Assembly (NCBI GenBank): GCA_945910005.1
Contig: OX246741.1
Span: forward strand, 49,817,298-49,881,297
Source: Isoperla grammatica
Lineage: Eukaryota > Arthropoda > Insecta > Plecoptera > Perlodidae
Reading direction: 5' to 3'
DNA: 64,000 nt
Shown here: positions 17,237-58,959 of the stretch, piece by piece
Layout: each line of letters starts with the position of its first letter
Numbering within the stretch: position 1 is the stretch's first letter
Position numbers and translations under genes: made by a program
The notes under the pieces: generated by a model
Seen by the model: the letters and a program-made list of their open reading frames with translations, nothing else
Databases searched by the model: none
Told to the model about the DNA's origin: nothing

Positions 17237-17332
17237 CTACTGAACGACTAATTTTATTCTCGTATTCAAGAAATAAAATGGTGTTTCACCGTCGTTTGTA
17301 CGAACCTGAATGTCCCCGCCCTTAGATATGAG
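17237..17332 (-). pseudogene. Displaced C-terminal ankyrin remnant
   Basis: Just past the present stop of the NACHT-ankyrin gene, the minus strand continues with sequence homologous to the 222-bp repeat (CTAAGGGCGGGGACATTCAG and onward). It now lies in another reading frame because of a 7-bp insertion at 17333-17339. In the frame used by the other units it reads LISKGGDIQVRT and continues to a stop at 17237-17239. The ancestral protein therefore probably ended about 30 residues further on. Confidence 0.7.
17253..17258 (-). promoter_or_regulatory. Candidate poly(A) signal AATAAA
   Basis: AATAAA on the minus strand, about 65 bases past the stop codon of the NACHT-ankyrin gene. The position suits 3'-end processing, but the sequence is AT-rich and the hexamer could be chance. 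Confidence 0.4.
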
Positions 17333-20300: not shown

Positions 20301-20420
20301 GGTGTTAATGTAGTCAGATAAAGGTTTGCCCTCCAGCCTTACAATCAGAGCCTTAACGGCATCCACAGTAGCATATCTGTTGGCACACAGGACATGAAGC
20401 GGTGTTTGGTTGTTGTTGTT
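17322..20420 (-). repeat. 222-bp coding tandem array (14 units)
   Basis: Within the gene, the block AAGGCCGACCAACC (minus strand GGTTGGTCGGCCTT) recurs every 222 bp: about 17383, 17605, 17827, 18049 and onward to about 20279. Units are highly similar at DNA level, including synonymous sites. Each encodes an ankyrin repeat beginning WSALHYACKHGNTEIMKLLI and a second one carrying KTPLHxLC and VDAVKALIVRLEGKPLSDYI. One unit near 19030-19050 carries extra codons (SPYHSAS). Such homogeneity points to unequal exchange or gene conversion. Confidence 0.93.
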
Positions 20421-23400: not shown

Positions 23401-24143
23401 TCCAAGGAGGGTTGCCCAGTAAACAATATGCAGGCATCCATAAATTCTTCGACCTCCTTAACGTTTTCGTGGTCACTCTTAAGATGTTCAAAGATATCTG
23501 CGTCGCAATTTTCTTTGTAATTGAAACTAAATATTAACCCTTTTTGTAGGTTTGACTCGAACAAGGTGTCTATTTTACTACTGTCAACAGGTTTCTTTCG
23601 CTCCTTATCTCTTTTGCACAAATCAGGGTGCGTTTTGGCGTTTGTGTACAAACAAAATGTACTGTCTTGTATTGTACAGCCTTTAAATAAGGATTCACTG
23701 GAAGCGGTTTTTATTAGCTCCTTTATTTCAACGTACGATTTTAAGTATTTTCTAAGTGAGAAGTCACCTTTACCTTTTAGATGATCAATACCAAGCGTGG
23801 CAGACTCCTTGTGCTTTAACTGTATAAAGCACGTCTGCCACTCCTGGGGATTGTCCTCGGTCTTATACTTAACAAACACGTCGTCCCAGGCCCCAACCTT
23901 GTCCACGTTTGACGCCAGGTGGAACTCGGTGACGATCTTGCTGTTCTTGAGACCCAAGAATAGTAAAGCGAGCAATCTTATTTCAAACTGTGTGCCTGAT
24001 TCTGTTGCGCGACCCTGCCTCTTAACGTAGGTGATCGGGGTAGAGGCGGCGACGCTAGAAAATAAGACCATAAATATTACATAGGCAATTTTACGCCCAG
24101 CTAAGTGGGCGCTGACATCTTTGACGTCCGCCATTATAACCAT
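17322..24143 (-). CDS. STAND/NLR-like protein: nuclease-like, NACHT, ankyrin array
   Basis: Single open frame of 2273 codons with no visible intron. Residues 19-34 are hydrophobic. Residues about 47-112 resemble a PD-(D/E)xK nuclease fold: E54 in a helix, D87/D88 in GAWDDVFVKY, and Q108-x-K110 in FIQLKHK. Residues 120-640 are unrecognised. A NACHT NTPase follows: Walker A AEAGMGKST with K663, Walker B VVLLDGMDE with D738 and D741/E742, sensor ITSR ending at R771, and a helical region ending FLHRAFAEYFAAQW. Ankyrin repeats start near 1040 and become a regular array of 14 double-ankyrin units of 74 residues from about 1230 to the end. Known NACHT-ankyrin STAND proteins oligomerise on ligand sensing; a nuclease effector is inferred here. 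ATG1 and ATG4 both have favourable contexts (A at -3, G at +4). The final unit is truncated by a frameshift. Cytosolic location is likely unless residues 19-34 act as a signal or anchor. Confidence 0.92.
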   Translation of the reverse strand: MVIMADVKDVSAHLAGRKIAYVIFMVLFSSVAASTPITYVKRQGRATESGTQFEIRLLALLFLGLKNSKIVTEFHLASNVDKVGAWDDVFVKYKTEDNPQEWQTCFIQLKHKESATLGIDHLKGKGDFSLRKYLKSYVEIKELIKTASSESLFKGCTIQDSTFCLYTNAKTHPDLCKRDKERKKPVDSSKIDTLFESNLQKGLIFSFNYKENCDADIFEHLKSDHENVKEVEEFMDACILFTGQPSLEKMKQLIKDELLIYNPMFTRDIDQLYQSYIDSIRQWWRKSKQSLSNGSDLLEQMMNEFQMTSLEKQSLDRFFLNHISFQNDHLFDKKNIDKYGLVHVSPSPSCISLCCTKLVQSFQKVNDHYTIVLDLDSLLTVSNERFLAWRKYNNKRLVIVSNSSDEHQAMCTTLSQQLENDSKQKIIIVSATDDAFTVNLKKCLPKSMCWEIPDTITISHLDTECQERLENTDVLFQDKLVQMMDLLEKGTELVSDVFNDDLVQKCFSTGPVSLGPLLEEPISYYIPRTLERQTRLNKDILKETNSDKYFVRNITEQELQKLVPAEAKVDNVKDFSRDSPCRHFVVGSDCTNEDIRNAVKHERNWHELRMCYDGNLEWLSTKGSVESINKFIIQDNPTPYNPGSALDLDGRVIIICAEAGMGKSTFVTHLAWETKKAHPSLWVIRVDLKDHIDKLVKFSDDDDAVKFLSLAANISETEMEGCLFRLMMGKGKCVVLLDGMDEIAPDYTEKGKSLITSLLKTTTCKIYITSRNALKHRLETHLQTLTFTIRKFSEEDQRIFFRNYLTKDILTSTTNYQPEELVNKLINLIARSLDEIGRDFMGTPLLTMMVAEIYSDYFKEQKTTGDIPDKLNIITMFKLVVSKKFKNYVHKIGLSKLHNITVEENNAFKNFFKCHMLASTMLLFNVDELHNSLKIKAHREKILDDISNCAYKGGIITNILNSKPIFLHRAFAEYFAAQWISQNYAENQDFLRRNLFSDEFKLIRRFLDVMLAKNSDLLTAVVNQDLQTVTLLLSAEKEDVNVTDLGGRTALHLAAAVGNARTRTNIPCMVQVLLEHGTTFYQDDKVLGLSALEYATHSESWQTFTELYEQLEIDRNNIDINKNKVEMRMRFRLVITYNKKSTWCTLLHHAYRLGWVNVGKRLIENMEALNSNSQTPTSHEVSTSRQAGVLTLERVTDTVARSINARNSYGDSALHLAAKMAENIEQAITFLVSKGGDIRARNNNNQTPLHVLCANRYATVDAVKALIVRLEGKPLSDYINTQDFLGWSALHTACMHGNTEVMKLLISKGGEIQARTKNDKTPLHILCDSAHASVDAVKALIVKLEGKPLSDYINTQDTDGWSPLHYACKYINYEIMELLISKGGEIQARTKNDQTPLHTLCNSQHASVEAVKALIVRLEGKPLSDYINIQDSDGWSALHYACKYINYEIMELLISKGGEIQARRKNDQTPLHTLCESEHASVDAVKALIVRLESKPLSDYINTQDFNGWSALHTACMHGNTEVMKLLISKGGDIQARTKYEHTPLHKLCNTHHASVDAVRALTVKLEGKPLSDYINTQESDGRSALHIACMFGNTEVMKLLISKGGDIQARTKNDETLLHTLCDSKHASVDAVKALIVRLEGKPLSDYINTQDSDGWSALHNTCYNGNTEIMKLLISKGGDIQARTQNDETPLHTLCNSPYHSASVDAVKALIVRLEGKPLSVYINTQDSDGWSAIHYAYKHGNTEVMELLISKGEHIQVSRYDGKTPLHVLCESEYASANAVKALIVKLESKPLSDYINTQDTDGWSALHYACKHINYEIMELLISKGGDIQARTKYEHTPLHKLCNTHHASVDAVRALIVRLEGKPLSDYINTEDRHGWSALHYACKHGNTEIMKLLISKGGDIQARTCFFKTTLHILCNYRYASVNAVTSLIVKLEDEALSDYINTKNLNGWLALHIACMHGNTEVIKLLISKGGDIQARTKNDQTPLHILCHSEHDSVDAVKALIVSLEGKPLFDYINTQDCHGYSALHSACKNINYEIMELLISKGGYIQTRNTNDQTPLHTLCNSQRASLNAVRSLIVRLEGKPLSVYINTKDSSGWSAFYYACKYINCEIMELLISKGGDIQARTKNDQTLLHTLCNSQRASVNAVRSLIVRLEGKPLSDYINTKDFSGWSALHYACKYINYEIMELLISKGGEIQARTKNDQTPLHTLCNSEHASVDAVRSLIVRLEGKPLSDYINTEDSKGWSALNYACKYGNTEIMELLNSHI

Positions 24144-24620
24144 TCTACTTTCTCAATGCACAGCCTTTTCGACGAGTCAATTCGCGATGGAATCTCAGTT
24201 TGCTGTTTGTTCAAGAATGGTTGCAATGGCGGTCGGAAGTTAAAAGATGGCGAAAATATAATGCCTTATATTGAGATTATATCTTAGATCAGATGAAAAG
24301 CTAAGCAGTATTAAAAAAAATTGTGTGTTAGTATTTGGCTGTTTTCCAAAAAACCTCGTATGACAACATTTGGAAATTTTAATCCCCGTTTTGGTTTTCA
24401 TATAATAACTGTATCATAAATTTAATTAAGTATTGGCAAAGATATTTATTTTTGATGTTGTTATCCTTCCACTAGAAAATGTCATGTTTTCTTATGAAGA
24501 TGTGTGCATATAATAGGACATAAAATATTACTTAAAAAGAAGTGTACATCAGGAGATTTTAAATCTGTGTGAGATCGTGAAAGAAGCGACACGAGCAACA
24601 ACAATCTGTTCTCATCCCTG
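24144..24620 (-). promoter_or_regulatory. 5' flank of NACHT-ankyrin gene, possible promoter
   Basis: Read on the minus strand, TATA-like words (GATATAATC, CAATATAAGG) lie near 24255-24285, about 110-140 bases before the ATG. They are followed by a short GC-richer leader that would be the 5' untranslated region. There is no other gene between this and the minisatellite. Assignment rests only on position and composition. Confidence 0.25.
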
Positions 24621-30516: not shown

Positions 30517-30585
30517 ACACCGAACATTAGCGTGGTTAAGAAGTGAGGTTAAGACCGAACATTAGCGTGGTTAAGAAGTGAGGTT
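30517..30585 (+). repeat. Two-copy 34-bp duplication in leader
   Basis: ACCGAACATTAGCGTGGTTA followed by AGAAGTGAGGTTA occurs twice in tandem just before the gag start codon. It lies in the untranslated leader of the retroelement. Confidence 0.85.
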
Positions 30586-30588
30586 AGA

Positions 30589-33500
30589 ATGAACAATTTG
30601 GCGCCAAGTTCACCGCCTTCTAACGAGGTGATCATGATGGACCATGATTACGTCACCGTTGGAACCGGAAATGGTGGGCGTGAAGAAGTAGGTGTACCAA
30701 CTGTTGAAAACAACACTTCCCCATCTCGAAACGAAAACCCCATCTCAACAAACGATTTGTTGCGCATGATGATCGAGGGCAATCGCCAACGTGACGAGAT
30801 GATTGCTAACCTAGTAAACAGGCTGACTATAGATTCAAATAGCAGCCGGCCTACAGAACAAGCAGGTACCACAGGTTATCACATTATGCCTGATCTAAAC
30901 AAAACTATTTCAAATTTTGATGGTACTGCAACAGGTGCCCAAGCAGCATCCTGGCTGCAAGCACTAGAAACCACAGCCAATTTGCACCAGTGGCAGGATT
31001 CTTTTAAATTAGAAGCTGCTAGGACACATCTTGTCCAGGGAGGCCACTACTGGTACCAATCAAACAGTGCTGAAATCAAATCTTGGAATGATTTCAAACA
31101 ACGATTCACGAAGAGCTTCGTAGGGCAAGTAAGCTTGCCCGAACGTTGGAAGAAAATGACTGAAAGGATTCAGCTGAAAAACGAAAATACATTCCAGTAC
31201 TTTCACGAAAAAGTGAGCTATTGCAAGGGGTTAAACCTAGAATTTGAAGACACTAAGTCACAGGTGTTGATAGGTTTGTACTCACGTCAACTGTATGCCG
31301 CATTGTTGTCAAGACAGCATGGTGATTTGGATGAAGTACTGCACGATATAAGAAAATTTGAAGAGCTCGAGAACGCGCGGAACACACTGAGAACCGTACC
31401 TGGATCAACAGGACCAACACAGAAGAATATAAATGTAAAAGATTCGCAGGCGCAGACAAAACCTACATACGCAGCTAGCACCCCAACGACAATAGATAAG
31501 TCAAATGGTAGCAACGCGTACAAGGTGAGATGTTACAATTGTAACAAACTTGGCCACATATCGCGTGATTGCACTGAACCCAAACGTGGAAGGAAAAATG
31601 GTCAAGGTGAAGTATCAAACCCAGATACACAGAAACAATCGTCTGGAGGATCTCCTGCTGTCGAAAACATGAAGTTCGTCGCAACAGAGGCTAGTGCTAA
31701 CCCATTGAAGTACATGAAGCAAGCCTTAGTAAATGGTCAAACTATTCAAGCTTTTATTGACCCAGGCAGTTCCGCTTGCACTATTCAAGCTACAGCAGCC
31801 ATAAAGTGCAAACTTCCAATAGAATTTACATCAACAACTCTGGTGGGTTTTGGAGATGAGATTCACACAAAACCACTCGGGAATATGACGACTGTCATTG
31901 AAATTAATGGTGTCATCGGGGAACAAGTAGACATCCTCGTAGTTCCAGACAAAATCCAGCCAATGGAACTTTTAGTTGGTCGCACTTGGACTGACCAACC
32001 AAAAATTGCTTATGCTAAAGTTAACGATACCTTGGTCATTGGGTATAATGATGAACTGCCGTTTGCAAGTATGGAAATTGTGGAACAACCAGTGCGCACA
32101 AAATTGAACACCGTATCTGCTCAATTGTTGCCGCGTGAATCGATCAATTTCATTCAAGTGTGTGCTGATAATAATGACAACGAGGTTTCAACCATTATGA
32201 TGATGAATGACACTTCAAAAGATATAAAGTTCGAAAAAGGTGACTGTGTTGCCAAGGTCTTGGTTTCCAAAGAAGAGAACCTACTGCCGAATCAGTACTG
32301 TTCAGAGGAACTCAATCCACTGGAACGAGCCGAACGACGACCAATAGTGAGGTCTGACCTAAATGTTGACCCAGGAATACCTGAATATCAGGTAGAGCAA
32401 CTTCTAGAGTTGGTCAACGAATACCGTGATTGTTTCGCCTTATCCCTTGGTGAGCTGGGATGCACCAAACTTACTACAATGGACATCGTCGAGAAACCAG
32501 GTAGCAGTCCGGTCGTGTGCAAACCCTACAAAACCAATGCTCAGGAGAGGCAAACCATAAAATCAATTATTGGAGAATGGAAGGATCATGGTATTGTGAC
32601 GGAGACTAGGTCTCCATATGCAAGCCCCGTCTTGCTCGTCAAGAAAAAGACAGGTGAACAACGACTTGTCGTGGACTACCGTAAACTTAATCGACAAACT
32701 GTAAAACAAAATTATCCCCTCCCAAATATAGACGATCAGTTGGAGCTACTTTCCGAAGCAAAGTTCTTCACCGTCCTTGATCTAGCCCATGGTTATCTAC
32801 AGGTACCACTAAGTGAAGATGCTAAGGAGAAAACGGCATTTGTTACACCCGATGAGACGGGACGTTTTGAAAGATTAATATTCGGTTTGACTAATGGACC
32901 GGCCGAGTTCCAGAGACTAATGAATCGGGTCCTTGGCCCACTGAGGAACACAATAACCATGTGTTACCTCGACGATCTACTTGTACCGGCACATGATTGG
33001 GAAGGTATGTTGAAGAACCTTAAACTAATATTCGAAGCTTTTCGCGCAGCGGGTTTAACGCTAAAAATTTCGAAGTGCGAGTTCGGCAAGAGGCAAATTG
33101 ACTACCTTGGATTTCTAATAGCGGAAGGAAAAATTCAACCGGGACAACGGAAGACAGAAGCTATATCTGAATTTCCCCAGCCTCGTAATGTGCATGAAAT
33201 CAGAAGATTCCTCGGATTGACGAGCTTCTTCCGTCGGTTTATAAGACACTACGCAGCAAGGGCTGAGCCAATATCCAGACTGACTCGAAAGGACCAACCA
33301 TTTGTATGGGCTCGGGAGCAAGAAGAATCTTTCATGGACTTGACAAATTCTCTGACAAGTTCTCCTGTCCTTGCGCTATACAACCCGAAGGCAAGAACAG
33401 AGCTGCACACAGACGCCAGTTGCCAAGGTTTGGCCGGAATGTTACTCCAAGAAGGAACAGATAAACAAATGCATCTAGTCTACTGTGTTAGTAAGAAGAC

Positions 33501-33693
33501 CACCGATGCCGAAAAGCATTATCACTCGTCTCGCTTAGAGTTGATGGCTATCACGTGGTCTGTAACACGCCTTCGTGGATTCCTACTAGCTATTCATTTC
33601 ACTATTGTGACTGACTGCCGTTCCCTAATATACTTGAACGAGCAACGCACTCAAAACCCCGTAATCGCTCGAATGAGTGATTGTGTGAGGTGA
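30589..33693 (+). CDS. Ty3/gypsy Gag-protease-RT-RNase H polyprotein, 3'-truncated
   Basis: A single open frame of 1034 codons. Residues 1-300 are Gag-like. A CCHC zinc knuckle (CYNCNKLGHISRDC) spans 315-328. An aspartic protease follows, with IDPGSS around D391 (DPG in place of the usual DSG/DTG). Reverse transcriptase includes VVDYRKLN, FFTVLDL, FGLTNGPAEFQRLMN and YLDD at 793-796. RNase H carries D942 (HTDAS), E984 (LELMAI) and D1009 (TDCRS). This order is that of Metaviridae retrotransposons. The frame stops at ARMSDCVR, just after RNase H; the integrase, any later gene and the 3' LTR are gone. A LINE fragment abuts the break. Gag and pol share one frame with no frameshift. The lack of internal stops suggests recent origin, but the copy cannot integrate by itself. 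Confidence 0.93.
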   Translation: MNNLAPSSPPSNEVIMMDHDYVTVGTGNGGREEVGVPTVENNTSPSRNENPISTNDLLRMMIEGNRQRDEMIANLVNRLTIDSNSSRPTEQAGTTGYHIMPDLNKTISNFDGTATGAQAASWLQALETTANLHQWQDSFKLEAARTHLVQGGHYWYQSNSAEIKSWNDFKQRFTKSFVGQVSLPERWKKMTERIQLKNENTFQYFHEKVSYCKGLNLEFEDTKSQVLIGLYSRQLYAALLSRQHGDLDEVLHDIRKFEELENARNTLRTVPGSTGPTQKNINVKDSQAQTKPTYAASTPTTIDKSNGSNAYKVRCYNCNKLGHISRDCTEPKRGRKNGQGEVSNPDTQKQSSGGSPAVENMKFVATEASANPLKYMKQALVNGQTIQAFIDPGSSACTIQATAAIKCKLPIEFTSTTLVGFGDEIHTKPLGNMTTVIEINGVIGEQVDILVVPDKIQPMELLVGRTWTDQPKIAYAKVNDTLVIGYNDELPFASMEIVEQPVRTKLNTVSAQLLPRESINFIQVCADNNDNEVSTIMMMNDTSKDIKFEKGDCVAKVLVSKEENLLPNQYCSEELNPLERAERRPIVRSDLNVDPGIPEYQVEQLLELVNEYRDCFALSLGELGCTKLTTMDIVEKPGSSPVVCKPYKTNAQERQTIKSIIGEWKDHGIVTETRSPYASPVLLVKKKTGEQRLVVDYRKLNRQTVKQNYPLPNIDDQLELLSEAKFFTVLDLAHGYLQVPLSEDAKEKTAFVTPDETGRFERLIFGLTNGPAEFQRLMNRVLGPLRNTITMCYLDDLLVPAHDWEGMLKNLKLIFEAFRAAGLTLKISKCEFGKRQIDYLGFLIAEGKIQPGQRKTEAISEFPQPRNVHEIRRFLGLTSFFRRFIRHYAARAEPISRLTRKDQPFVWAREQEESFMDLTNSLTSSPVLALYNPKARTELHTDASCQGLAGMLLQEGTDKQMHLVYCVSKKTTDAEKHYHSSRLELMAITWSVTRLRGFLLAIHFTIVTDCRSLIYLNEQRTQNPVIARMSDCVR

Positions 33694-42635: not shown

Positions 42636-45263
42636 CAGTTGCAACAGATCGTGTGTACGAACCACGCGTGTAGTCCCGAGACCAGTTGCAGCAGATCGTG
42701 TGTACGAACCACGCGTGACGTCACGAGACCAGTTGCAACAGATCGTGTGTACGAACCACGCGTGTAGTCCCGAGACCAGTTGCAGCAGATCGTGTGTACG
42801 AACCACGCGTGACGTCACGAGACCAGTTGCAACAGATCGTGTGTACGAACCACGCGTGACGTCACGAGACCAGTTGCAACAGATCGTGTGTACGAACCAC
42901 GCGTGACGTCACGAGACCAGTTGCAACAGATCGTGTGTACGAACCACGCGTGACGTCACGAGACCAGTTGCAACAGATCGTGTGTACGAACCACGCGTGT
43001 AGTCCCGAGACCGGTTGCAGCAGATCGTGTGTACGAACCACGCGTGACGTCACGAGACCAGTTGCAACAGATCGTGTGTACGAACCACGCGTGACGTCAC
43101 GAGACCAGTTGCAACAGATCGTGTGTACGAACCACGCGTGTAGTCCCGAGACCAGTTGCAGCAGATCGTGTGTACGAACCACGCGTGACGTCACGAGACC
43201 AGTTGCAACAGATCGTGTGTACGAACCACGCGTGACGTCACGAGACCAGTTGCAACAGATCGTGTGTACGAACCACGCGTGACGTCACGAGACCAGTTGC
43301 AACAGATCGTGTGTACGAACCACGCGTGACGCCACGAGACCAGTTGCAACAGATCGTGTGTACGAACCACGCGTGACGCCACGAGACCAGTTGCAACAGA
43401 TCGTGTGTACGAACCACGCGTGACGTCACGAGACCAGTTGCAACAGATCGTGTGTACGAACCACGCGTGACGTCACGAGACCAGTTGCAGCAGATCGTGT
43501 GTACGAACCACGCGTGACGCCACGAGACCAGTTGCAACAGATCGTGTGTACGAACCACGCGTGACGTCACGGGACCAGTTGCAACAGATCGTGTGTACGA
43601 ACCACGCGTGACGTCACGAGACCAGTTGCAACAGATCGTGTGTACGAACAACGCGTGACGTCACGGGACCAGTTGCAACAGATCGTGTGTACGAACCACG
43701 CGTGACGTCATGAGACCAGTTGCAACAGATCGTGTGTACGAACCACGCGTGACGTCACGAGACCAGTTGCAACAGATCGTGTGTACGAACCACGCGTGAC
43801 GTCACGAGACCAGTTGCAACAGATCGTGTGTACGAACCACGCGTGACGTCACGGGACCAGTTGCAACAGATCGTGTGTACGAACCACGCGTGACGTCACG
43901 AGACCAGTTGCAACAGATCGTGTGTACGAACCACGCGTGACGTCACGGGACCAGTTGCAACAGATCGTGTGTACGAACCACGCGTGACGTCACGAGACCA
44001 GTTGCAACAGATCGTGTGTACGAACCACGCTTGACGTCACGAGACCAGTTGCAACAGATCGTGTGTACGAACCACGCGTGACGTCACGAGACCAGTTGCA
44101 ACAGATCGTGTGTACGAACCACGCGTGACGTCACGAGACCAGTTGCAACAGATCGTGTGTACGAACCACGCGAGACGTCACGAGACCAGTTGCAACAGAT
44201 CGTGTGTACGAACCACGCGTGACGTCACGAGACCAGTTGCAACAGATCGTGTGTACGAACCACGCGTGACGTCACGGGACTAGTTGCAACAGATCGTGTG
44301 TACGAACCACGCGTGACGTCACGAGACCAGTTGCAACAGATCGTGTGTACGAACCACGCGTGACGTCACGAGACCAGTTGCAACAGATCGTGTGTACGAA
44401 CCACGCGAGACGTCACGAGACCAGTTGCAACAGATCGTGTGTACGAACCACGCGTGACGTCACGAGACCAGTTGCAACAGATCGTGTGTACGAACCACGC
44501 GTGACGTCACGAGACCAGTTGCAACAGATCGTGTGTACGAACCACGCGTGACGTCATGAGACCAGTTGCAACAGATCGTGTGTACGAACCACGCGTGACG
44601 TCACGGGACCAGTTGCAACAGATCGTGTGTACGAACCACGCGTGACGTCACGAGACCAGTTGCAACAGATCGTGTGTACGAACCACGCGTGACGTCACGA
44701 GACCAGTTGCAACAGATCGTGTGTACGAACCACGCGTGACGTCACGAGACCAGTTGCAACAGATCGTGTGTACGAACCACGCGTGACGTCACGAGACCAG
44801 TTCCAACAGATCGTGTGTACGAACCACGCGTGACGTCACGGGACCAGTTGCAACAGATCGTGTGTACGAACCACGCGTGACGTCACGGGACCAGTTGCAA
44901 CAGATCGTGTGTACGAACCACGCGTGACGTCACGAGACCAGTTGCAACAGATCGTGTGTACGAACCACGCGTGACGTCACGAGACCAGTTGCAACAGATC
45001 GTGTGTACGAACCACGCGTGACGTCACGAGACCAGTTCCAACAGATCGTGTGTACGAACCACGCGTGACGTCACGGGACCAGTTGCAACAGATCGTGTGT
45101 ACGAACCACGCGTGACGTCACGAGACCAGTTGCAACAGATCGTGTGTACGAACCACGCGTGACGTCACGAGACCAGTTGCAACAGATCGTGTGTACGAAC
45201 CACGCGTGACGTCACGAGACCAGTTGCAACAGATCGTGTGTACGAACCACGCGTGACGTCGCG
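42636..45263. repeat. 47-bp CpG-rich satellite, about 56 units
   Basis: Unit: CAGATCGTGTGTACGAACCA, CGCGTGACGTCACGAGACCA, GTTGCAA. The period is exactly 47 bp throughout. Almost every unit has TGACGTCA, the CREB/ATF palindrome, and CACGCGTG. The first dozen units mix in a variant with GTGTAGTCCCGAG in place of GTGACGTCACGAG; later units vary mostly at single CG sites (CATGAG, GCCACG, CACGGG). CpG density is far above the surrounding DNA. Frames such as RVYEPRVTSRDQLQQIVCTN are artefacts. Confidence 0.97.
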
Positions 45264-45528: not shown

Positions 45529-45537
45529 TATTTAATC
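45529..45537. repeat. 9-bp target-site duplication, left
   Basis: TATTTAATC directly before the left terminus AGGTACATTAACTTG; identical to 58951-58959. Confidence 0.85.
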
Positions 45538-46980
45538 AGGTACATTAACTTGTCCCCCCCACCTCGACATTTCATCCTCAATATGAGCTCATATTTTTGC
45601 ACCAATTATGCACCTTTTTGCACCCAAGTATTGATTTTTGCACCCCATTGGTTTCGGAGTTATACCCATTTCAATGCGGGGGGGACAGGTTAATGGCTGT
45701 CCCCCCCACCTTGGAAATTCAACTTAATTATATGCTTATATTTTTGCACCATTTATGCACCTTTTTGCACCCAAACATTGATTTTTGCACCCTAATAGTT
45801 TCGGAGTTATACGCGACTCAATTTGGGGGGGACAAGTTAATGGTAGCCCCCCCACACAGGGCCATTAACTTTAATTCATGTTCATAATTTTGCACCATTT
45901 TTGCACCTTTTTGCACCCAAGTCTTGATTTTTGCACCTCATTGGTTTCGGAGTTATACCCATTTCAATGCGGGGGGGGACAGGTTAATGGCTGTCCCCCC
46001 CACCTTGGAAATTCAACTTAATTATATGCTTATAATTTCGCACTATTTTTGCACCTTTTTGCACCCAAGTCTTAATTTTTGCACCCTAATAGCTTCGGAG
46101 TAATACGCGTTTTAATTTGGGGGGGACAAGTTAATGGTAGCCCCCCCACACAGGGCTATGTACTTTAATTCATGTTCATAATTTTGCACCATTTTTGCAC
46201 CTTTTTGCACCCAAGTCTTGATTTTTGCACCTCATTGGTTTCGGAGTTATACCCATTTCAATGCGGGGGGGGGACAGGTTAATGGCTGTCCCCCCCACCT
46301 TGGAAATTCAACTTAATTATGTGCTCATAATTTTGCACTAATTTGCACCTTTTTGCACCCAAGTCTTAATTTTTGCACCCTAATAGTTTTGGAGTAATAC
46401 GCGTTTTAATTTGGGGGGGACAAGTTAATGGTAGCCCCCCACACAGGGCTATGAACTTTAATTCATGTTCATAATTTCGCACCATTTTTGCACCTTTTTG
46501 CACCCAAGTCTTGATTTTTGCACCCTAATAGTTTCGGAGTAATACGCGTTTTAATTTGGGGGAGACAAGGTAATGGTAGCCACCCCACACAGGGCTATGT
46601 ACTTTAATTCATGTTCATAATGTTGCACCTTTTTGCACCCAAGTATTGATTTTTGCACTTTAATAGTTTCGGAGTTATACGCATTTCTATTTGCGGGGGA
46701 CAAGTTAATGGCATCCCCTAAACTTGTGTTTCATCTAAAAAAAACATTTCATATTTTTGCACCAATTATGCACTTTTTTGCACCCAAGTATTGATTTTTG
46801 CACCCCCTTGGTTTTGGAGTTGTACCAATTTCAATGTGGGGGGGACAAGTTAATGGCTGTCCCCCCCACCTTGTAAATTCAACTTAATGATATACTCTTA
46901 TATTATTGCACCATTTTTGCACCTTTTTGCACCTTCTTATTGATTTGTGCACCCATATGGTTCGGAGTTATTCACATTTC

Positions 46981-47011
<31 letters not shown>

Positions 47012-47460
47012 CAAGTTCATGGCATCCCCAAAACTTGTTTTTCATCTAAAAAAAGTTCATATTTTTGCACCAATTATGCACCTTTTTTGCACCTAAGTAG
47101 TAATTTTTGCACCCTTGTAGTTTCATAGGTAAACGCGTTTCAATTTGGGAGGGTCAATTTAATGGTAGCCCCACACAAACGATTTTAACCACAAAAACAT
47201 GCTCATAATTTTGCACCATTTTTGCATGTTTTTGCACCCATGTATTGATTTTTGCACCCTTATAGGTTTGGAGTTATACGAATTTTTTTGGGTGGTGGGG
47301 GGGGGGGGGGGTGGTTCAAGGTAATGTTAGCCTCCCCACAAACGTTCTTTACTACAAAAACATGCTCATAATTTTTCACCCTAATAGTTTTTAGGTTATA
47401 CGCATTCAATTTGGGAAGGGGGGAGTGGAGGGTTCAAGTTAATAGAAGCTCACCAAACTT
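45538..47460 (+). repeat. Left terminal array of GCACC subrepeats
   Basis: Subrepeats of about 147 bp arranged as about 295-bp dimers: one monomer has CAATGCGGGGGGG and AGGTTAATGGCTGTCC, the other TTTGGGGGGGACAAGTTAAT and GGTAGCCCCCCCACACAGGG. Each holds TTTTTGCACCC several times. About 13 monomers are present, becoming more diverged toward the inside. Confidence 0.92.
46990..47010 (+). repeat. Poly-G tract, 21 bp
   Basis: An uninterrupted G run inside a diverged subrepeat. The length is likely variable and error-prone in sequencing. Confidence 0.8.
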
Positions 47461-48839
47461 GTAGTAGGAGCGCAAGATGTACTTTTTTGGCTCTCGTAGG
47501 CTATTCGTGGAAGAGTATAGCGGTAAACGGGATTATGCAAAGTCATGTATTACAATGTTTTTGGACCAGGGTTACATCGGCGTAATTGCTGCAGACGGCG
47601 TCAGTGGCGCCGCGACGCCACCTGACGCCGCCACACGACGCCACCGAACGTTTTGGCTTATAACTGTTACACCGTTTGTCCTACAGAAAAAAAAAAATGA
47701 TTTTTCATTCAGTTTTTAAATACGAATCGATTAGTACCAAAAACGTTATGATTAGATGAGCGTAGCGAAGCAGAGTGAATCTCACATTTCAACTCGATTG
47801 GCGCTTTGTCTTTGATTGTGCACAAAAGTTTGTTCGTCACGCTTAGGTCACACGGCTTGACGGATTTGGCTGAAATTTTAGATAAACTCTTGTGACTACA
47901 AGTTTAGATGGTGTTAACATAAACAAGAAAATCCGTCAAGATTCCAACCTACAAAAAATTAATTAGTGAAAAATATCGAGTTTTAATATTTTTGTTCTTC
48001 GCGCACAGGTTAAACTTCTTAACGGATTTGGCTGAAATTTTAAGTCAACACTCTGGACTATTAAAGTAGATGCTGTTAACATAACCAAGAAAATCCGTCA
48101 AGATGCCAACCTACAAAAAATGTATTAGTGAAAAATCTCGAGTTTTAATTTGTTCTATTAAAATTTATGGACGGATTTAAATATTTTTTTTATATTTATT
48201 TCCAAAATAAGAATATTGACACGTAATAAAAGTTTGAAAGTAGTAACTTGAACCGCCATTAAGTAAACAAATATTTTGTTTTTTTGTATGCAAAAGTTTG
48301 TTCGTCGAGCACAAGTCAAACGGCTTGACGTATTTGGTTAAAATTTTCAGTGAACACTCACGCACACTACAGAAAATGCTGTTAGCATATCCAGCAAAAT
48401 CCGTCAAGATGGCAACCTACAAAAAAATAACTACTAAAACAAATAAAATATTTTATTTATTTTTTAAATTAAAACTTGCCGTCGGATTTTAATATTTTTT
48501 TTAAATGAATTACAGAATAATAGTGTCAACATATGACAGACGTTTTTTAATTGTTTTGTTAACGGACATCTTGTAACCAAATATTTGTTTATTTACGGCA
48601 ATATATTTTGCTATTGTCAACTTTTTTGCTAATATCTGTACTCCCATTTGGGTCCTGGGTAGAATTTGGGGTAGAATTATAAGAGGCGAGAAAATAAGGG
48701 CCCTCCCTTCTCTGTCCTCCAAGGAGCATTAAAAGCACGCATACCTGCCCACCACGATAAGTTAACAGTTGCTGACAAGAGCATATACTTCGGTAGGGCC
48801 ACCGTAGCCGGACAGGTCGAAGCCAAACGAAACGAAATT

Positions 48840-49468
48840 ATAACAGGTTAATGCCTTGTTTGATAAATTAAAAAAAGATCGGTTAACGCAGAGCGTTTTC
48901 CTAGTCATTAAATATTTAGATTGGTTATATCATTACAGCCTTACAAAAACGATTTTTTTAAGTAATGAGTGCTATCAGCAGTCACTCTCTTGGGGAGGTG
49001 TCCCCCTAGCCAGTAAAAATATATTCGTTATGTCCTTGTTACTTGAATCCTACACGACGTGGTGACCGGTTCGCCCAACAGTTTAAACTGCGCATACCTT
49101 AAAAAATTAATAGTAGTTTATTTTTCAATCACATCCTTATACCATTGTCTACGCATTGAAAACGTCTACGCATTGTGATTGAAAAATAAACTACTATTAA
49201 TTTTTTAAGGTATGCGCAGTTTAAACTGTTGGGCGAACCGGTCACCACGTCGTGTAGGATTCAAGTAACAAGGACATAACGAATATATTTTTACTGACTA
49301 GGGGGACACCTCCCCAAGAGAGTGACTGCTGATAGCACTCATTACTTAAAAATTATCGTTTTTGTAAGGCTGTAATGATATAACCAATCTAAATATTTAA
49401 TGACTAGGAAAACGCTCTGCGTTAACCGATCTTTTTTTAATTTATCAAACAAGGCATTTACCTGTTAT
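48840..49468. mobile_element. Hairpin MITE, 629 bp, AATT duplication
   Basis: The left arm 48840-49133 beginning ATAACAGGTTAATGCC and the right arm 49174-49468 ending ACCTGTTAT are near-perfect reverse complements of about 294 bp with a 40-bp loop. AATT flanks both sides (48836-48839, 49469-49472). The matching position in the opposite arm of the 4.5-kb element (near 50625-50640) reads straight through CGAAATTGAATAGC without the insertion, which fixes the limits exactly. Confidence 0.92.
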
Positions 49469-49791
49469 AATTGAATAGCTCAAGTCAATAAGTGCCTAAG
49501 TGACATTTTTTGACAAACTGAGTTAAGCCCGCCAAGTTATTGTACATACATAGGCGCATCATATTAATGCAAGAAACACCCAAGTGTAAGACCCAGACCA
49601 TATTTTACAAGGCCTTGAAAATCTCTCTCAAGTCAATAACAGACCAAGTACATGTCACTTGGTCATTTCTTGCCTTGAGGTTGGCGATCGTGTCTGAATA
49701 CCCGGACTGTTGTCAATGTTTCTTGCTACGTGGATGGTATCCGTGTTAAAATCATTTAGCTGTCACCTGTGGCTGCAACTTGCTGTTAACA

Positions 49792-49932
49792 ATGAGTGAT
49801 TCTTCAGATTCTGACTCAGATTCTAGAGATATTAAAAAACTGTATAAATATCTCAATCCTAATGAAATAGAATTCTACAATGCTGTAAATTCTACAGCGG
49901 AGGAGCCTGCAGAAGATAATGATGATCTTTAA
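49792..49932 (+). CDS. Small acidic ORF, 46 residues, unknown
   Basis: ATG in a favourable context (A at -3) opens 46 codons: MSDSSDSDSDSRDIKKLYKY, a middle with NPNEIEFYNAVN, and the end AEEPAEDNDDL. The product is Ser/Asp-rich at the N-terminus and Glu/Asp-rich at the C-terminus. It sits in the unique core of the 4.5-kb inverted-repeat element, where a transposon would keep its gene. Acidic N-termini occur in some transposases (for example piggyBac-like), but nothing here is specific. It may be a first exon, a remnant or chance. Confidence 0.3.
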   Translation: MSDSSDSDSDSRDIKKLYKYLNPNEIEFYNAVNSTAEEPAEDNDDL

Positions 49933-50280
49933 ACTGATGAATGTAGGCCTAGTCGTTCTTGCCTCACGATTGTTTCTTCAACAATGTTATACTGTAGCTA
50001 CAAATGTTTACTTACAAACCGAGGCTAGTAATGATAGTATTTTCTTTGTGTATGTAGCCTGTTTTCTTCATTTTAAGTGCAACTTACAAATAGCAGATAC
50101 TGTACGAATGTAATAAACTAAATCACATTCTAATGAGCTTGGTTTGTGAACTAATTTAAATATTAATCCCTGATCCTATGACTACTAAATACGACATATT
50201 ATCAAATTAAATATGAACAAATTATATTTTCAAAAGCACTAACAAATATTTTGTTGTCTTTCGATTTATCCCCATGAATC

Positions 50281-50298
50281 GGGGGGGGGGGGGGGGGG
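50281..50298 (+). repeat. Poly-G tract, 18 bp
   Basis: Uninterrupted G run within the core of the 4.5-kb element. Confidence 0.85.
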
Positions 50299-52039
50299 TA
50301 AATTTTAAGTTAGATGCAGATAGCTTTCATGCAACCACAATATTGATTAACAAAAAAATTACAATTTTCAAGAAGTTAACCCAAGAAATGCCCAAGTGAG
50401 AACCTCAAGTCAATAACTAACCAAGTACAAAAAACTATAATTCAAAAATAAAAAAAAGTAAGCCTACCAGAAAAAAAACAGCAAGGTCATGGTGTTGGGT
50501 ACACCAAGAGGTATATGTTTTAAAAAAATCAAAAATTAAGTCCATAAATTGGCAGCACAGTGTGGTTTTTTTTAGTTTTCTCAAAATGTGGTATTTGTGA
50601 CTTGGTCAGTTATTGACTTGAGCTATTCAATTTCGTTTCGTTTGGCTTCGACCTGTCCGGCTACGGTGGCCCTACCGAAGCATATGCTCTTGTCAGCAAC
50701 TGTTAACTTATCGTGGTGGACAGGAATGCGTGCTTTACATGCTCCTTGGAGGGCAGAGAAAGGAGGGCCTTTATTTTCTCGCCTCTTATAATCTACAGAT
50801 ATATTACCTGGGCCAAATTCTACCCAGGACCCAAATGGGAGTACAGATATTAGCAAAAAAGTTGACAATTGCAAAATATATTGCCGTAAATAAACAAATA
50901 TTTGGTAACAAGATGTCCGTTAACAAAACAATTTAAAAACTTCTGTCATATGTTGACACTATTATTCTGCAATTCATTTTAAAAAAATTATTAAAATCCG
51001 ACGGCAAGTTTTAATTTAAAAAATAAATAAAATATTTTATTTGTTTTAGTAGTTATTTTTTTGTAGGTTGCCATTTTGACGGATTTTGCTGGATATGCTA
51101 ACAGCATCTTCTGTAGTGTGCGTGAGTGTTCACTGAAAATTTTAACCAAATACGTCAAGCCGTTTGACTTGTGCTCGACGAACAAACTTTTGCATACAAA
51201 AAAACAAAATATTTTTTTACAAAATGGCGGTTCAAGTTACTACTTTCAAATTTTTATTACGTGTCAATATTCTTATTATGGACATAAATATAAAAAAAAT
51301 ATTTAAATCCGTTCATAAATTTTAATAAAACAAATTAAAACTCGAGATTTTTCACTAATAAATTTTTTGTAGGTTGGCATCTTGACGGATTTTCTTGGTT
51401 ATGTTAACAGCATCTACTTTAATAGTCCAGAGTGTTGACTTAAAATTTCAGCCAAATCCGTTAAGAAGTTTAACCTGTGCGCGAAGAACAAAAATATTAA
51501 AACTCGATATTTTTCACTAATTAATTTTTTGTAGGTTGGAATCTTGACGGATTTTCTTGTTTATGTTAACACCATCTAAACTTGTAGTCACAAGAGTTTA
51601 TTAAAAAGTTCAGCCAAATCCGTCAAGCCGTGTGACCTGTGCGTGACGAACAAACTTTTGTGCACAATCAAAGACAAAGCGCCAATCGAGTTGAAATGTG
51701 AGATTCACTCTGCTTCGCTACGCTCATCTAATCATAACATTTTTGGTACTAATGGTTTCGTATTTAAAAACTGAATGAAAAATCATTTTCGTTTTTTCTG
51801 TAGAACAAACGGTGTAAAAGTTATAAGCCAAAACGTTCGGTGGCGTCGTGTGGCGGCGTCAGGTGGCGTCGCGGCGCCACTGACGCTGTCTGCAGCAATT
51901 CCGCCTATGTAACCCTGGTCCAAAACCATTGTTATACATGCCTTTGCATAATACCGTTTACCGCTATACTCTTCCACGAATAGCCTACGAGATACACTTT
52001 GCTGCTCTACTATTGTTTAAAATCTCCCAAACATATTTA

Positions 52040-52270
52040 TATTTTTGGACCCACTTTTGCACCTTTTTGCAGCCAAGCGTGGTTTTCACACCTTTTTTGG
52101 TCTCGGAGATGTATGCATTACATTTGGGGGGGGGGGGGGGGGTATAATGTGTCCCCCTATTTTAGAAAGGGAACTTTTTCATTCCAAAGGTGTGCATCAT
52201 GTATAGCATCTGTTTTTACCTATGCTTCGTTTTTCGCACCCTTTTGTTTTCAGAGTTATGCGTACGCATA
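52040..52270 (+). repeat. Isolated diverged GCACC subrepeat
   Basis: CACTTTTGCACCTTTTTGCA, a long G run at about 52123-52141 and TTTCAGAGTTATGCGTACGC match the monomer of the left terminal array in the same orientation. It suggests the 4.5-kb element was inserted inside that array and split off this unit. Confidence 0.65.
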
Positions 52271-55200
52271 AGTCGGATGGGTGCAAGCTAAATAAATGGT
52301 GGAGAACCAACGTAACTGAATTGCCATTTGAATAAGTTTTTTCATGACTGGGAACGACAGTTGTTTTTGCTGTGTTGGTAAATGATGACTATGATGATGA
52401 TGATAATGAGTATCGGGTCGAGTTGGGTCCCTCCTCGTTTTTTATTTCTATTTTATTTTATTGTTTATTTGGGTTTTCTTCTCATATTTTTGCAATGATG
52501 GCTAACCGAGACGATGAGTGGGTGATTAGGATGATGAAATGAAGGTACAGTAGCAAAGCGGATACAGGGTGGGGGGGCGGGGAGGGGGGGGGGCGATCTA
52601 CCCATCGCTCCCTATGATTGTCCGACCAAAGGACCACATATTATGGGTATAAGACTTGAACTTCTTACCCCCACACCCCTTTAACTTTAAAATGGTATCA
52701 GTTGTAGTAATAAGTTCAGATCACAAAAATCCTTCTGGGTGAATAATGAATTAATCTAGAAGTCATTTCCGGGCACTTGATAAAAGAATTTCGTATAATT
52801 GATTTGCGTCCAGCTGCTGGGGCTTTGCCTCGGGCCCCGTTCATTCGTTCATTACAAGATAACCACAGCAAGCATCCATGCAAATACCCGAAAAAAACAC
52901 TAGTGGGGTGCAATTCGGGGCTCCCACTGCTGCAAAAACCAAAAGTAAGTACTAATTACATCCTGATTCAATTTTGTGTTAATAGTAAGTATACTGAACA
53001 CATTTATGTCAATTAAGCATTTGTCGAGCTGTGGTGACTTCTGAACCTGGTAGAAACGCTAGATGGATTCCTGCGGGAAAAGGTGCAAAAGTTGCAAACT
53101 AATTTACTACAGCAAATAGCATGCTAAATGATTCTACAACCTATAACAAAATTGTTATGAAAATTGGGTAATTCGTGACAGCCCCCCCCCCCCCCTTTAA
53201 AATAAAGGTGTTCGCGCCTTCTATTTGCTTCTTCGTAGCAACGAGTCACATACACCAGAGGGAATAATCAGCGAATCACAAATAAATATCACTTGAGTTT
53301 CACCATTCCTATTATGAACTCAATGGAACGATTAGTTTATTAATCTATGCATAAACGAGTACGTGGTTTACTATCAACACAACGGTATAGGAAATATTCT
53401 TTTAAACCACGGAATAAAACAGACATCTTTGTTATCCCGCCACGGTAAGACGTCATATCGGGCCCTGTGATTGGCTGACACGCTCTGCCACGGCGCACGA
53501 ACCAATGAGCGCGCGGCGCGAAATCCAAGTATATGATTGAAGGCTGAAGGATAAAGGCTGGCGCTGTTAGTGGGATAATGTCGCAGTGCAAAGCCCAATA
53601 GATGATTTTCAAAAATAATCAAAAGGCCAAGATTAACTCTAACTCAGGGTCCTTGATAATTATTTTAAGGTGCCCTTTCACTGTTGTGCATTTTTGTCAT
53701 TGTTATCTATGACAATCGTGTTGATGATGATTCAATCACTTCAGTTCCCGAACTCCAGCTGAGCTGTATTCCCACTCGCCTCGAGTTAGGAACTACTGTG
53801 TTTTGGCTAAGGGGCGTCTCAGGGTGTGTAGGAGGCGTATTGGAAGGATCTGTTGGGCATTATATTGCTTACTGTTGACGTCATGACGATCATTGGGAAG
53901 AATACAATGACCTTCAAGACAAAAAGTCTCCAATTTCTTCGAGTAAAGTGGTAAATTCTGCGTTGCTTTATTACAGCGTTGGGTAACAATAGTCTGTCGA
54001 ATCGGACTTACACGATGAAATAATAATGATAATGATGTGCGATATTATCTAAAATGGCGGGCTTACCAAAAAAACGAACACGATCAAAGCCTGAGGCGCG
54101 ATACAAATATTAAATGAAACGTGCCATTGAATCTGTGTAACACAATATCTAACGTAGACAATAATATGCACACAAAATAGGGAATTGAATCATGTATATG
54201 TTTTAATTTAATTTTTCTAAATACGGATAAATTGGCAAAACAAACGAATATTTTATTTGTGTAACTAGAACAGATTTGTATTGACAAAAACGAGCTTAAC
54301 GTTTCACATATAATTTTGGCGGAAAAAACGGGTCATGACGTCACTACTTGTATGATGCAAATTGCAATCAATCAATCATACACACAAAATAACTCTTCGT
54401 TTAAACCTTAACCATTAGAAGCCTCCTTGAAATTCTGAAACCAGATTTATGTTCTGTGTACATAATACTTAATTTTGGACATTAATTAATAAGAATAAAA
54501 AGTATTACTCATTCCACATTTTCATAGAATATCAGGCAAGCTTTGGTTTTATTTATTTTTTAACAAATTATTTTTGTTTAAAATTTTCATTTTCTGAGTA
54601 TCTGACAACTACTAGACTTTGTTTTATAAATAAGTGACAACAGACCAAGTATAAGGTTCAATGTTTCATCTGTTGGTTTCATAGAGGCAACGGCAAATTT
54701 ATTCATAAACATACAAGAAATTTACGTCACAGGAATTTTGAAACTAAAATTGGGGGAAACAGAAAATCAAAAATTTGAACTTTTGTAGAAATTGAATTAA
54801 TTGCTCTTAAAACATGAAAATCACGTGTTTGGTGTTTTTACATGAAAATCTATTTATTACACTTCCAAACATATTGGAGACTCATGTGACCCCTATTAAC
54901 AGTGATATTTCGGCAAGCTATAAAATAACGTTTCTTTCTTATTCTTATACTGCTATAATAATTTCACCCCTTAGCCAGAACACAGTATTTCCTACAACGT
55001 AAGGTGATCTACAGCTCCCGTTGGAATTAAAGCCCGATTTGATACATGTGGACAATCGAACGTCATAGTATTACACGTCAACAAGAACTCTATGTTTACT
55101 GTTTAACCTTGGAACGATGTATGCTTGGACAGTGATAATATTTTGAGTTAATAGTATCACCCACTAATTTTGTGTTTGATGTTATGTGGAAGCTAAAAAT

Positions 55201-55660
55201 AAGTTTGGTGTATAAAAGTGAATTACAGGATCCATATTACGACACTGTGATACATAAAATGTATTACTTAAAACTATGAGTTGAGGAGTTGACGAACTAC
55301 TTTGTTGATTGTGTAAATCGTAATATTTTGTTTCCGTAAAAAATGTGTTCTATCACATGAACATTGTGTTTCATATAATTATTTTTTCAAGTATAATTTG
55401 TGTTATGAGTAGAGTACGTCCTCGTCAATGTTGTGAACGCCCAGTATATGTTTTATTGATATTTTGTTGTGATAACTCAATGGGTCTTAATTTAAATCAA
55501 GTTAACCAATTGATTACTGCTTTCACAGCATTTTCTCTTAAAATATAAATAAATATGCAATAATATATGTATAATATGTAAATTATGTGTATTATGTATT
55601 ATATGTATATATACATATGTTTAAATGTATATGAATAATGAAGTTATTTCGTGCTGTGGC
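52271..55660. other. Interior of foldback element with no supportable gene
   Basis: No transposase or other domain-bearing frame is seen. Features are a G-rich stretch at 52568-52593, a poly-C run at about 53182-53195, and a GC-rich segment at 53440-53530 with two opposed CCAAT/ATTGG words (TGATTGGCTGACACG and GAACCAATGAGCGCG). Confidence 0.5.
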
Positions 55661-56760
55661 AGCATTTTCTTTTTTTATTGATTTGTGCAATTAACTTATG
55701 TGCCTTAAAAATAAGTTAATCACCAATTGATTGTGGCTATCAATGCATTTCATGTTGACAGAGCTTTCTTTATTGATAAGTAGGTTATATCGCGTTGTAT
55801 GATGCCAATTTCTTTTCAAATGATTTGTGTACGTACCGTAATGTGTCACACTTAAAAATAAGTATTTTAGCGATTGACTGGGGCTATCAAGTATCAATGC
55901 ATAACACTTTGATAAATAACCTAAATGTATCTTTCGAGAATAAGATTATTGTGCTTTGTATGGTGCCAATTTATTTTCTAATGATTTGTGTACATACCAT
56001 AATGTGTCACACTTAAATATAAGTATTATGTCGATTGACTTGGGCTATCAAGTATCAATGCATTATGCATAATTGATATATAACTTAAATGTATCTTTGG
56101 ATTACATAGTTATTTTGTGTTGTGTATGCCATTCTCTTTTCTATTTATTTGTAACAATTCATAGTTCCCACGTGACGTCACAGCGGCCATGATTGCGACA
56201 CAATTGATGAGGACCAATCCTAGATCTTTGGCAAATACTATTCAAATTCAATAAATAAGCCTAATTTAGAATGTAAAAAGTAAACATAAGTAATACAAAA
56301 ATTTAAAAACCACACATATCAAGTTTATCTCAAAACCACCCTGAATTGTAAAGGAATAAGGATTTCTGTGTTCTACCACAAACAGCCTTCAATTATTTCT
56401 CCATGGCAACATCAAAGTTTGATCACAAATGTGGCCGCTACGCGCAAAGATGTGACGTATGTGCAACCTGTGATTAACGTCTTACTTAAAAATGATAGTC
56501 ATACCAATTCATTGTGCATATCAATGCATACATCAATACATTGATGTATTAAACTTATGTTTCTTTGGATTACGTTTTTTGTGATGTGGGTGGCATCGTC
56601 TTTTTCACCGATTTGTGTAACATACGTAATGTGCCTTACTTAAAAATAAATTGTCATTATTGGCGTCCATCAATGCATTACATCTTGATATACTATAAAC
56701 GCATTCTTTGTTCAATAATAATGAGGTTATTATGCTGTATGTAATTTTTGAGTAAACCGA
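55661..56760. repeat. Diverged tandem repeat of about 155 bp
   Basis: The phrase GATTGACTGGGGCTATCAAG with TATCAATGCAT recurs at about 55722, 55871, 56032, 56503 and 56662, together with ATGATTTGTGTACATACC and AATGTGTCACACTTAAA. Spacing is about 149-161 bp except where the element at 56160-56475 intervenes. Confidence 0.75.
56160..56475. mobile_element. Possible MITE interrupting the 155-bp repeats
   Basis: The left edge CCCACGTGACGTCACAGCGG and right edge CGCAAAGATGTGACGTATGT with CCACATTTGTG-type sequence (reverse complement) form a weak inverted repeat. The ends resemble those of the element at 62879-63241 (CACGTGATATCACATCGGCC). Its position inside an otherwise regular array supports insertion. 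Confidence 0.5.
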
Positions 56761-57097
56761 TATTTTTGTAAACACGCTCTATTTTTTTTGTTCTTCACAT
56801 TGGTAACTCCATTTCACTGCAAGCTCCCATAATTGTATTTATGGATGAAATGATAAGAGAAGTGACTTCCTAAAATGGCTGACGACAAGGACCCAGATGT
56901 GAAACTCCTTCTAGTGGCGAAATATAGGCGGCAACGAGCACGGCTATTAGCCACACTACCACAGTCCACAAGAAGCAAAAACTGGCAATAGTAATGATAT
57001 GGAAGGATTTTTTTTATGAACATCTCTAGTATTTAAACAGCATAAACTGAAATTTGTGATGAAAAAACGGTACAAAATTATAACCATACTTTTGGTA

Positions 57098-58950
57098 GAA
57101 ATATCTGCATAATTGGTGCAAAAATATGAACATGTTTTTTTTAGATGAAACACAAGTTTCAAGGATGCCATTAGCTTGTCCCCCCCAAATAGAAATGCGT
57201 ATAACTCCGAAACTATTAAAGTGCAAAAATCAATATTAAGGTGCAGAAAGGTACAAAAAAGGTGCAACATTATGAACATGAATTAAAGTAAATAGCCCTG
57301 TGTGGGGTGGCTACCATTAACTTGTCCCCCCCCAAATTAAAACGCGTATTACTCCAAAACTATTCGGGTGCAAAAATCAAGACTTGGGTGCAAAAAGGTG
57401 CAAAAATGGTGCGAAATTATGAACATGAATTAAAGTACATAGCCCTGTGTGGGGGGCTACCATTAACTTATCCCCCCCAAATTAAAACGCGAATTACTCC
57501 GAAACTATTAGGGTGCAAAAATTAAGACTTGGAAGCAAAAAGGTGCAAAAATAGTGCAAAATTATGAGCATATAATTAAGTTGAATTTCCAAGGTGGGGG
57601 GGACAGCCATTAACCTGTCCCCCCCCCGCATTGAAATGGTTATAACTCCGAAACCAATGAGGTGCAAAAATCAAGACTTGGGTGCAAAAAGGTGCAAAAA
57701 TGGTGCAAAATTATGAACATGAATTAAAGTACATAGCCCTGTGTGGGGGGGCTACCATTAACTTGTCCCCCCCAAATTAAAACGCGTATTACTCCGAAAC
57801 TATTAGGGTGCGAAAATCAAGACTTGGGTGCAAAAAGGTGCAAAAATAGCGCAAAATTATGAGCATATAATTAAGTGGAATTTCCAAGGTGGGGGGGACA
57901 GCCATTAACCTGTCCCCCCCCCCCCCCCCGCATTGAAATGGGTATAACTCCGAAACCAATGAGGTGCAAAAATCAAGACTTGGGTGCAAAAAGGTGCAAA
58001 AATGGTGCAAAAGTATGAACATGAATTAAAGTACATAGCCCTGCGTGGGGGGGCTACCATTAACTTTCCCCCCCCCAAATTAAAACGCGTATAACTCCGA
58101 AACTATAAGGGTGCAAAAATCAATGTTTGGGTGCAAAAAGGTGCAAAAATAGTGCAAAATTATGAGCATATAAGTAAGTTGAATTTCCAAGGTGGGGGGG
58201 ACAGCCATAAACCTGTCCCCCCCGCATTGAAATAGGTATAACTCCGAAACCAATGAGGTGCAAAAATCAAGACTTGGGTGCAAAAAGGTGCAAAAATGGT
58301 GCAAAATTATGAACATGATTAAAGTACATAGCCCTGTGTGGGGGGGCTACCATTAACTTGTCCCCCCCCCAAATTAAAACGCGTATTACTCCGAAACTAT
58401 TAGGGTGCAAAAATCAAGACTTGGGTGCAAAAAGGTGCAAAAATAGTGCAAAATTATGAGCATATAATTAAGTTGAATTTCCAAGGTGGGGGGGACAGCC
58501 ATTAACCTGTCCCCCCCGCATTGAAATGGGTATAACTCCGAAACCAATGAAGTGCAAAAATCAAGACTTGGGTGCAAAAAGGTGCAAAAATGGTGCAAAA
58601 TTATGAACATGAATTAAAGTACATAGCCCTGTGTGGGGGGGCTACCATTAACTTGTCCCCCCCAAATAAAAACGCGTATTACTCCGAAACTATAAGGGTG
58701 CAAAAATCAATGTTTGGGTGCAAAAAGGTGCATAAATGGTGCAAAAATATAAGCATATAATTGAGTTGAATTTCCAAGATGGGGGGGACAGCCATTAACC
58801 TGTCCCCCCCGCATTGAAATGGGTATAACTCCGAAACCAATGGGGTGCAAAAATCAATACTTGGGTGCAAAAAGGTGCATAATTGGTGCAAAAATCTGAG
58901 CTTAGATTGAGGATGAAATGTCGAGGTGGGGGGGACAAGTTAATGTACCT
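57098..58950 (-). repeat. Right terminal array of GCACC subrepeats
   Basis: Reverse complement of the left array, with the same dimeric arrangement (about 12-13 monomers) and the same alternation of GGACAGCCATTAACCTGTCC and GCTACCATTAACTTGTCC blocks. A 19-bp poly-C run lies near 57911-57929. Units here are more uniform than the inner part of the left array. Confidence 0.92.
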
Positions 58951-58959
58951 TATTTAATC
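58951..58959. repeat. 9-bp target-site duplication, right
   Basis: TATTTAATC directly after the right terminus CAAGTTAATGTACCT; identical to 45529-45537. Confidence 0.85.

Follow-up and report, generated by a model that had tools for sequence, protein, structure and literature searches.

A probable Mutator-like foldback transposon with satellite-like arms in Isoperla grammatica, and its transposase-bearing sister copies

Introduction

Drosophila Foldback (FB) elements have inverted arms made of short direct repeats and are flanked by 9-bp duplications, and in the P superfamily the target duplications are 8 bp for the P element and 7 bp for Galileo. Here we describe a foldback element at positions 45538–58950 of a 64,000-nucleotide stretch of the Isoperla grammatica genome (hereafter the window; assembly GCA_945910005.1, contig OX246741.1, forward-strand positions 49,817,298 to 49,881,297), whose duplications are 9 bp long, as against the 7 bp of Galileo. 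Set beside FB by description, the element is alike in its inverted arms of direct repeats and its 9-bp duplications, and differs in unit length and sequence. We conclude, with a probability of roughly 0.86, that the copy in the window is a non-autonomous, internally deleted foldback DNA transposon that belongs to the Mutator-like elements and is of the Rehavkus type.

The systems closest to it are summarized here. Target duplications of Mutator-like elements (MULEs) measure 8–11 bp, and the MULE-related Rehavkus combines 9-bp duplications with a zinc-finger transposase and a minisatellite (PMC6446971). Rehavkus-1_TC of Tribolium castaneum is 9.5 kb long, with inverted termini in which a 164-bp satellite unit recurs, mostly five and eight times (PMC10218199). 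The window element is similar in its 9-bp duplications, which fall within the Mutator-like range, in its units of ~147 bp, in its length of ~8.9 kb and in having tandem repeats in or beside its inverted termini. It differs in that a PHD finger is reported for Rehavkus, whereas the finger of the present transposase, though of Cys4-His-Cys3 order by eye, matches Pfam Znf_SCAND3, and in that the present transposase has a predicted ubiquitin-protease domain, a feature that the available passages on Rehavkus do not mention.

Three further systems share parts of this architecture. Tm1, a Mutator/Foldback element of root-knot nematodes, resembles the present family in its composite arms of tandem repeats, its mostly 9-bp duplications, its short members similar to miniature inverted-repeat transposable elements alongside transposase-encoding ones, and a copy reported to contain another element nested inside it, but its unit is ~14 bp rather than 147 bp and its transposase has 496 residues (PMC3169594). 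Tetris of Drosophila virilis has arms with ~220-bp tandem repeats and duplications of 8–10 bp, but is apparently non-autonomous, whereas the present family has transposase-bearing sister copies (PMC4079207). The arms of Galileo are likewise long and internally repetitive and offer its transposase repeated binding sites, but Galileo has a THAP domain and belongs to the P superfamily (PMC3688188). The window element is probably a further Mutator-like foldback transposon, of the Rehavkus type.

Structure of the foldback element

The element lies between two exact copies of the 9-mer TATTTAATC, at 45529–45537 on the left and at 58951–58959 on the right (neither assigned a strand). These are the only occurrences of the 9-mer on the plus strand of the window, and its reverse complement occurs once, at 1193. 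Directly inside the duplications both tips are exact, mirrored copies of AGGTACATTAACTTGTCC, and each arm has one outward terminus, CATTAACTTGTCCCCCCC. The perfect duplication and the inverted termini are thus as the original prediction described them. A 47-bp minisatellite (42636–45260; ~56 copies, 97% matches) stops ~270 bp short of the element.

Both long inverted arms are built of tandem direct repeats, each arm being a head-to-tail array of units mostly 144–149 bp long with a two-unit period of 294 bp. The outer part of the left arm (45538–47461, plus strand) holds ~13 units of ~147 bp and the right arm (57086–58950, minus strand) ~12–13 in the opposite orientation, both with the AGGTACATTAACTTGTCC terminus facing out; the counts of repeats are lower bounds. 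The two arms are 85% identical across ~1.8 kb, and their first 170 bases differ little. The opposed subrepeat arrays of the original prediction are therefore present in both arms, but the left one is not continuous: a separate element of 4,551 bp breaks into it at 47462, and the array restarts at 52016 for ~255 bp as an inner remnant (52016–52270, plus strand; inner boundary approximate) in which degenerate units carry the array on.

The middle region (52271–57085, no strand assigned, boundaries approximate) is common in whole or in part to six sister copies. Compared over 52150–57085, the main aligned pieces are 95–99% identical to those copies, with differing insertions and deletions; the copy on C15 has just the right two-thirds of the window's middle. 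At 53693–53983 on the plus strand we found a remnant of a transposase gene, which encodes the last 97 residues (the end of a protease-like domain), contains an in-frame stop and is 94% identical to the C15 copy. When the transposase frames of C15 and C9 were searched against the window by tblastn, this remnant was the only match, a six-frame Pfam scan of 52150–57090 gave nothing at E 0.01, and an Rfam scan of the window gave no match. The window copy is non-autonomous and internally deleted, having lost nearly all of its transposase gene.

Related copies in the genome

We searched the genome that contains the window (874 Mb in 603 contigs; copies are labelled here by contig, as C1, C5 and so on) with an 18-base terminus and obtained 25 exact and 9 one-mismatch matches. 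Matches with two mismatches are mostly uninformative, because a control with the reversed pattern gave 45 matches versus 72 for the terminus. All 34 ends with 0–1 mismatch were studied, together with two of the 38 others that serve as pair partners. The further copies that the original prediction suggested looking for exist: the genome holds 13 mirrored end pairs, the window copy included.

The 9-mers flanking the two ends are identical in eight of the 13 pairs (the window, two on C5, two on C8, one each on C1 and C14, and a 35-kb copy on C9) and agree at 8/9 in one more (C13), so that target-site duplications occur at several independent loci; the nine have a G+C content of 33%. By comparison, 156 left/right comparisons between non-partner ends all showed at least 2 mismatches, two of them exactly 2, the best being 7/9.

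Outside that set of 156, we observed one exact match between non-partners. The 9-mer at the left end of the element at C15:32964082, TTCAATAAT, is also the 9-mer outside the unpaired right end at C17:24006748, while the two flanks of the C15 element itself differ. Possibly a single insertion gave rise to both ends, its two halves having been separated when copies on two chromosomes underwent exchange. Another unpaired end lies at C9:49167461. On C20, one unpaired left end occurs twice, at 20112660 and 20242920, with identical flanks and a spacing of 130 kb, which suggests a segmental duplication; C20:20112660 also holds transposase pieces, and a search over 7.3 kb at C20:20242920 gave no mirrored partner.

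Transposase of the sister copies and assignment of the family

Long open transposase frames of 1,123 and 1,199 codons occur in the copies on C15 and C9, respectively. The motif D-D-DxxH-E is invariant in this transposase, the catalytic region has an RNase H-like core, and the C-terminus adopts a ubiquitin-protease fold, both activities being predicted. A finger with Cys4-His-Cys3 order can be read by eye in the alignment; Pfam names it Znf_SCAND3 and lists no PHD model. Relatives of the transposase are found in insects and others. A sequence search of the Protein Data Bank with the C9 frame gave one chance-level row, and a literature search for fusions of a transposase with a ubiquitin protease brought up no relevant report among the titles listed. 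With VIA-align, the catalytic core scored Z 12.9 against ISCth4, which we take to be of the IS256 family, 10.7 against Hermes and 10.1 against the P element. The foldback element has 9-bp duplications and relatives with DDE-type frames, and its affinity is probably Mutator-like.

Several points weigh against this assignment. The Rehavkus type is judged by published descriptions. Other copies do have 9-bp duplications, whose absence would have told against the original prediction, but not in every case: beside the eight exact pairs and the one at 8/9, one pair matches at 7/9 (the 254-bp copy on C1) and three have flanks without a match (C6, C15, and C510). Of the two copies that bear a transposase, C15 is thus one whose flanks differ. 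The other, on C9, has two candidate right ends, of which the one counted shares the TTGGCC variant of the left end and has matching flanks, and the alternative has an unmatched flank; this 35-kb copy also encloses a large amount of other DNA, and the gene in it may therefore not go with these ends. Among the 34 ends with 0–1 mismatch, ten are unpaired, and six loci, which look like truncated copies, have no partner over ~17–18.5 kb. As for the autonomous relative with a MULE transposase that the original prediction proposed to look for, sister copies do have long DDE-type frames, but no MULE model is among the matches of a Pfam scan of the C15 and C9 open reading frames (ORFs). Pfam UCH falls below the cutoff for C15, is not on the list for C9, and is absent for the relatives P0001 and P0002. 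Finally, in the Foldseek ranking for the catalytic domain the transposase of the P element (E 2.6e-5) comes slightly ahead of ISCth4 (4.4e-5), so the superfamily cannot be read from the fold alone.

That last result is also what speaks for a foldback of the P superfamily, in which the long, internally repetitive arms would be convergent. We consider this unlikely, as the duplications are 9 bp, exact in the eight pairs named above, rather than the 7–8 bp of that superfamily, and the VIA-align score prefers ISCth4 to the P element. The precedent for such an element is Drosophila Galileo, which has foldback-like arms with repeated binding sites (PMC3688188). Its THAP domain has no counterpart among the Pfam results, which at E 1 list no such model for either the C15 or the C9 frame, although weak matches can be missed in such a scan. 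A Mutator-like affinity, with the Rehavkus type as the nearest description, remains our preferred assignment.

A second element within the left arm

The interruption of the left arm is an inverted-repeat element of 4,551 bp (47462–52012, no strand assigned), with ends TAGTAG.../...CTACTA and terminal inverted repeats (TIRs) of ~1.36 kb that are 95.5% alike. It is flanked by a TTG duplication at 47459–47461 and 52013–52015, the junctions in the window reading ...AAACTTG / TAGTAGGAGC ... GCTCTACTA / TTGTTTAAA..., and the empty site AAACTTGTTTAAA is present in all five sister copies examined. The segment 47480–52010 gave no BLAST match (E 1e-8) in any of the ten other copies compared. With its own inverted repeats, its own TTG duplication, and an empty site in sister copies, the inner 4,551 bp is a separate element. 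It contains a near-perfect palindrome (48840–49468; 629 bp, 95.9% self-complementary, AATT on both sides), its TIRs contain 162-bp internal repeats, and a small frame at ~49793–49932, starting MSDSSDSDSDS, might be a transposase remnant.

Without the nested element the foldback element measures ~8.9 kb, and copies on C5 and C14 measure 9.2–9.3 kb. The original prediction, that a giant element of 13.4 kb moved as one unit, is thus not upheld: judged from the sequence, the mobile unit was apparently ~8.9 kb, and movement of the inner 4.55 kb along with it is disfavoured. At this size the element would be ordinary for its kind, as the 9.5-kb Rehavkus-1_TC illustrates. That all 13.4 kb formed one composite transposon would agree with the perfect 9-bp flanks that enclose the whole, but it requires the inner insertion to precede the last jump, which is possible and not needed, and given the TIRs and TTG duplication of the inner element and the clean empty sites we regard it as very unlikely.

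A satellite array that rearrangement or misassembly had turned into inverted arms, with the 9-mers agreeing by chance, has in its favour the satellite-like arrays of the arms, the three end pairs without duplications, and the exact C15–C17 match, but is ruled out for practical purposes by the 9-bp duplications across the family (8 of 13 pairs identical, whereas none of the 156 non-partner comparisons came within one mismatch), by the same middle at other loci at 95–99% identity, and by the transposase that sister copies encode. Independent copies of the same architecture likewise exclude an assembly error as a general cause.

Organization of the arm units

We compared 111 units from eight copies. 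Units at equal distance from the end are most alike, with a mean identity of 0.930 between the two arms of one element (42 comparisons) and 0.927 between elements (474 comparisons); at other offsets identity is 0.877–0.891 (even) and 0.836–0.852 (odd), a contrast blurred in some arms where a missed boundary motif shifts the numbering. Since units equally far from the end are most alike, the comparison suggests that the arrays were passed down in order rather than newly amplified in each copy.

Where two units meet, the terminus recurs in inverted form, GGGGGGGACA[A/G]GTTAATG, and is followed immediately by the C-tract of the next unit; the left arm has 8 sites matching this search pattern and the right arm 9, and the remainder are degenerate. 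The units look as if TIR elements of ~150 bp had been linked head to tail in a row, each junction losing a few bases. The genome also has short relatives of one or a few units; the short copies include a 310-bp copy of two units on C13 (flanks 8/9), a 428-bp copy with variant ends on C8 (flanks exact), the 254-bp copy on C1 (flanks 7/9), and a 178-bp copy on C510 (flanks without a match), and a 1,499-bp copy on C5, with exact flanks, is just two arms head to head. We tentatively suggest that the arms could be concatemers of the element's own miniature transposon; growth by end-to-end joining of such a small element is conceivable, and we hold it no more firmly.

Other features of the window

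A 40-bp minisatellite of ~46 copies lies at 10812–12668. An open frame of 2,276 codons at 17322–24152 on the minus strand, NACHT- and ankyrin-like judging by its translation and matches, is partly encoded by a 222-bp tandem array; it has 5 database matches, the best named ones being Periplaneta proteins at 25–29% identity (top 27%). An open frame of 1,046 codons at 30553–33693 on the plus strand is gag-pol-like, of retroelement type, judged by eye from the translation.

Discussion

The architecture of the family suggests how the window copy most likely moved. Transposase supplied by copies such as those on C15 or C9 would bind the repeated units in both arms, the many units of each arm acting as repeated binding sites. 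The ends would then be paired and cut at the AGGTAC tip, and insertion with a 9-bp stagger would follow, the window copy moving in trans. The deubiquitinase-like domain may shield the transposase, or a protein that acts with it, from removal that depends on ubiquitin, stabilization of the transposase being our first guess; alternatively, it may act on ubiquitinated chromatin. The second inverted-repeat element, most simply a later insertion into the left arm, would have brought the locus to its 13.4 kb.

For foldback elements, non-autonomous copies are often all that is known. Here a single genome has array-armed copies that lack a transposase as well as copies whose transposase frames are long and open, which makes it testable how the repeated arm units are used and why an RNase H-type transposase bears a conserved ubiquitin-protease triad. 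Should the concatemer reading of the arms prove true, the arms would have grown by serial self-joining of ends, and each would offer many near-ends to a transposase that, in this family, is coupled to a deubiquitinase. The anatomy of the units suggests a concrete way in which a small TIR element could give rise to satellite-like arms, and so bears on how transposons may seed satellites.

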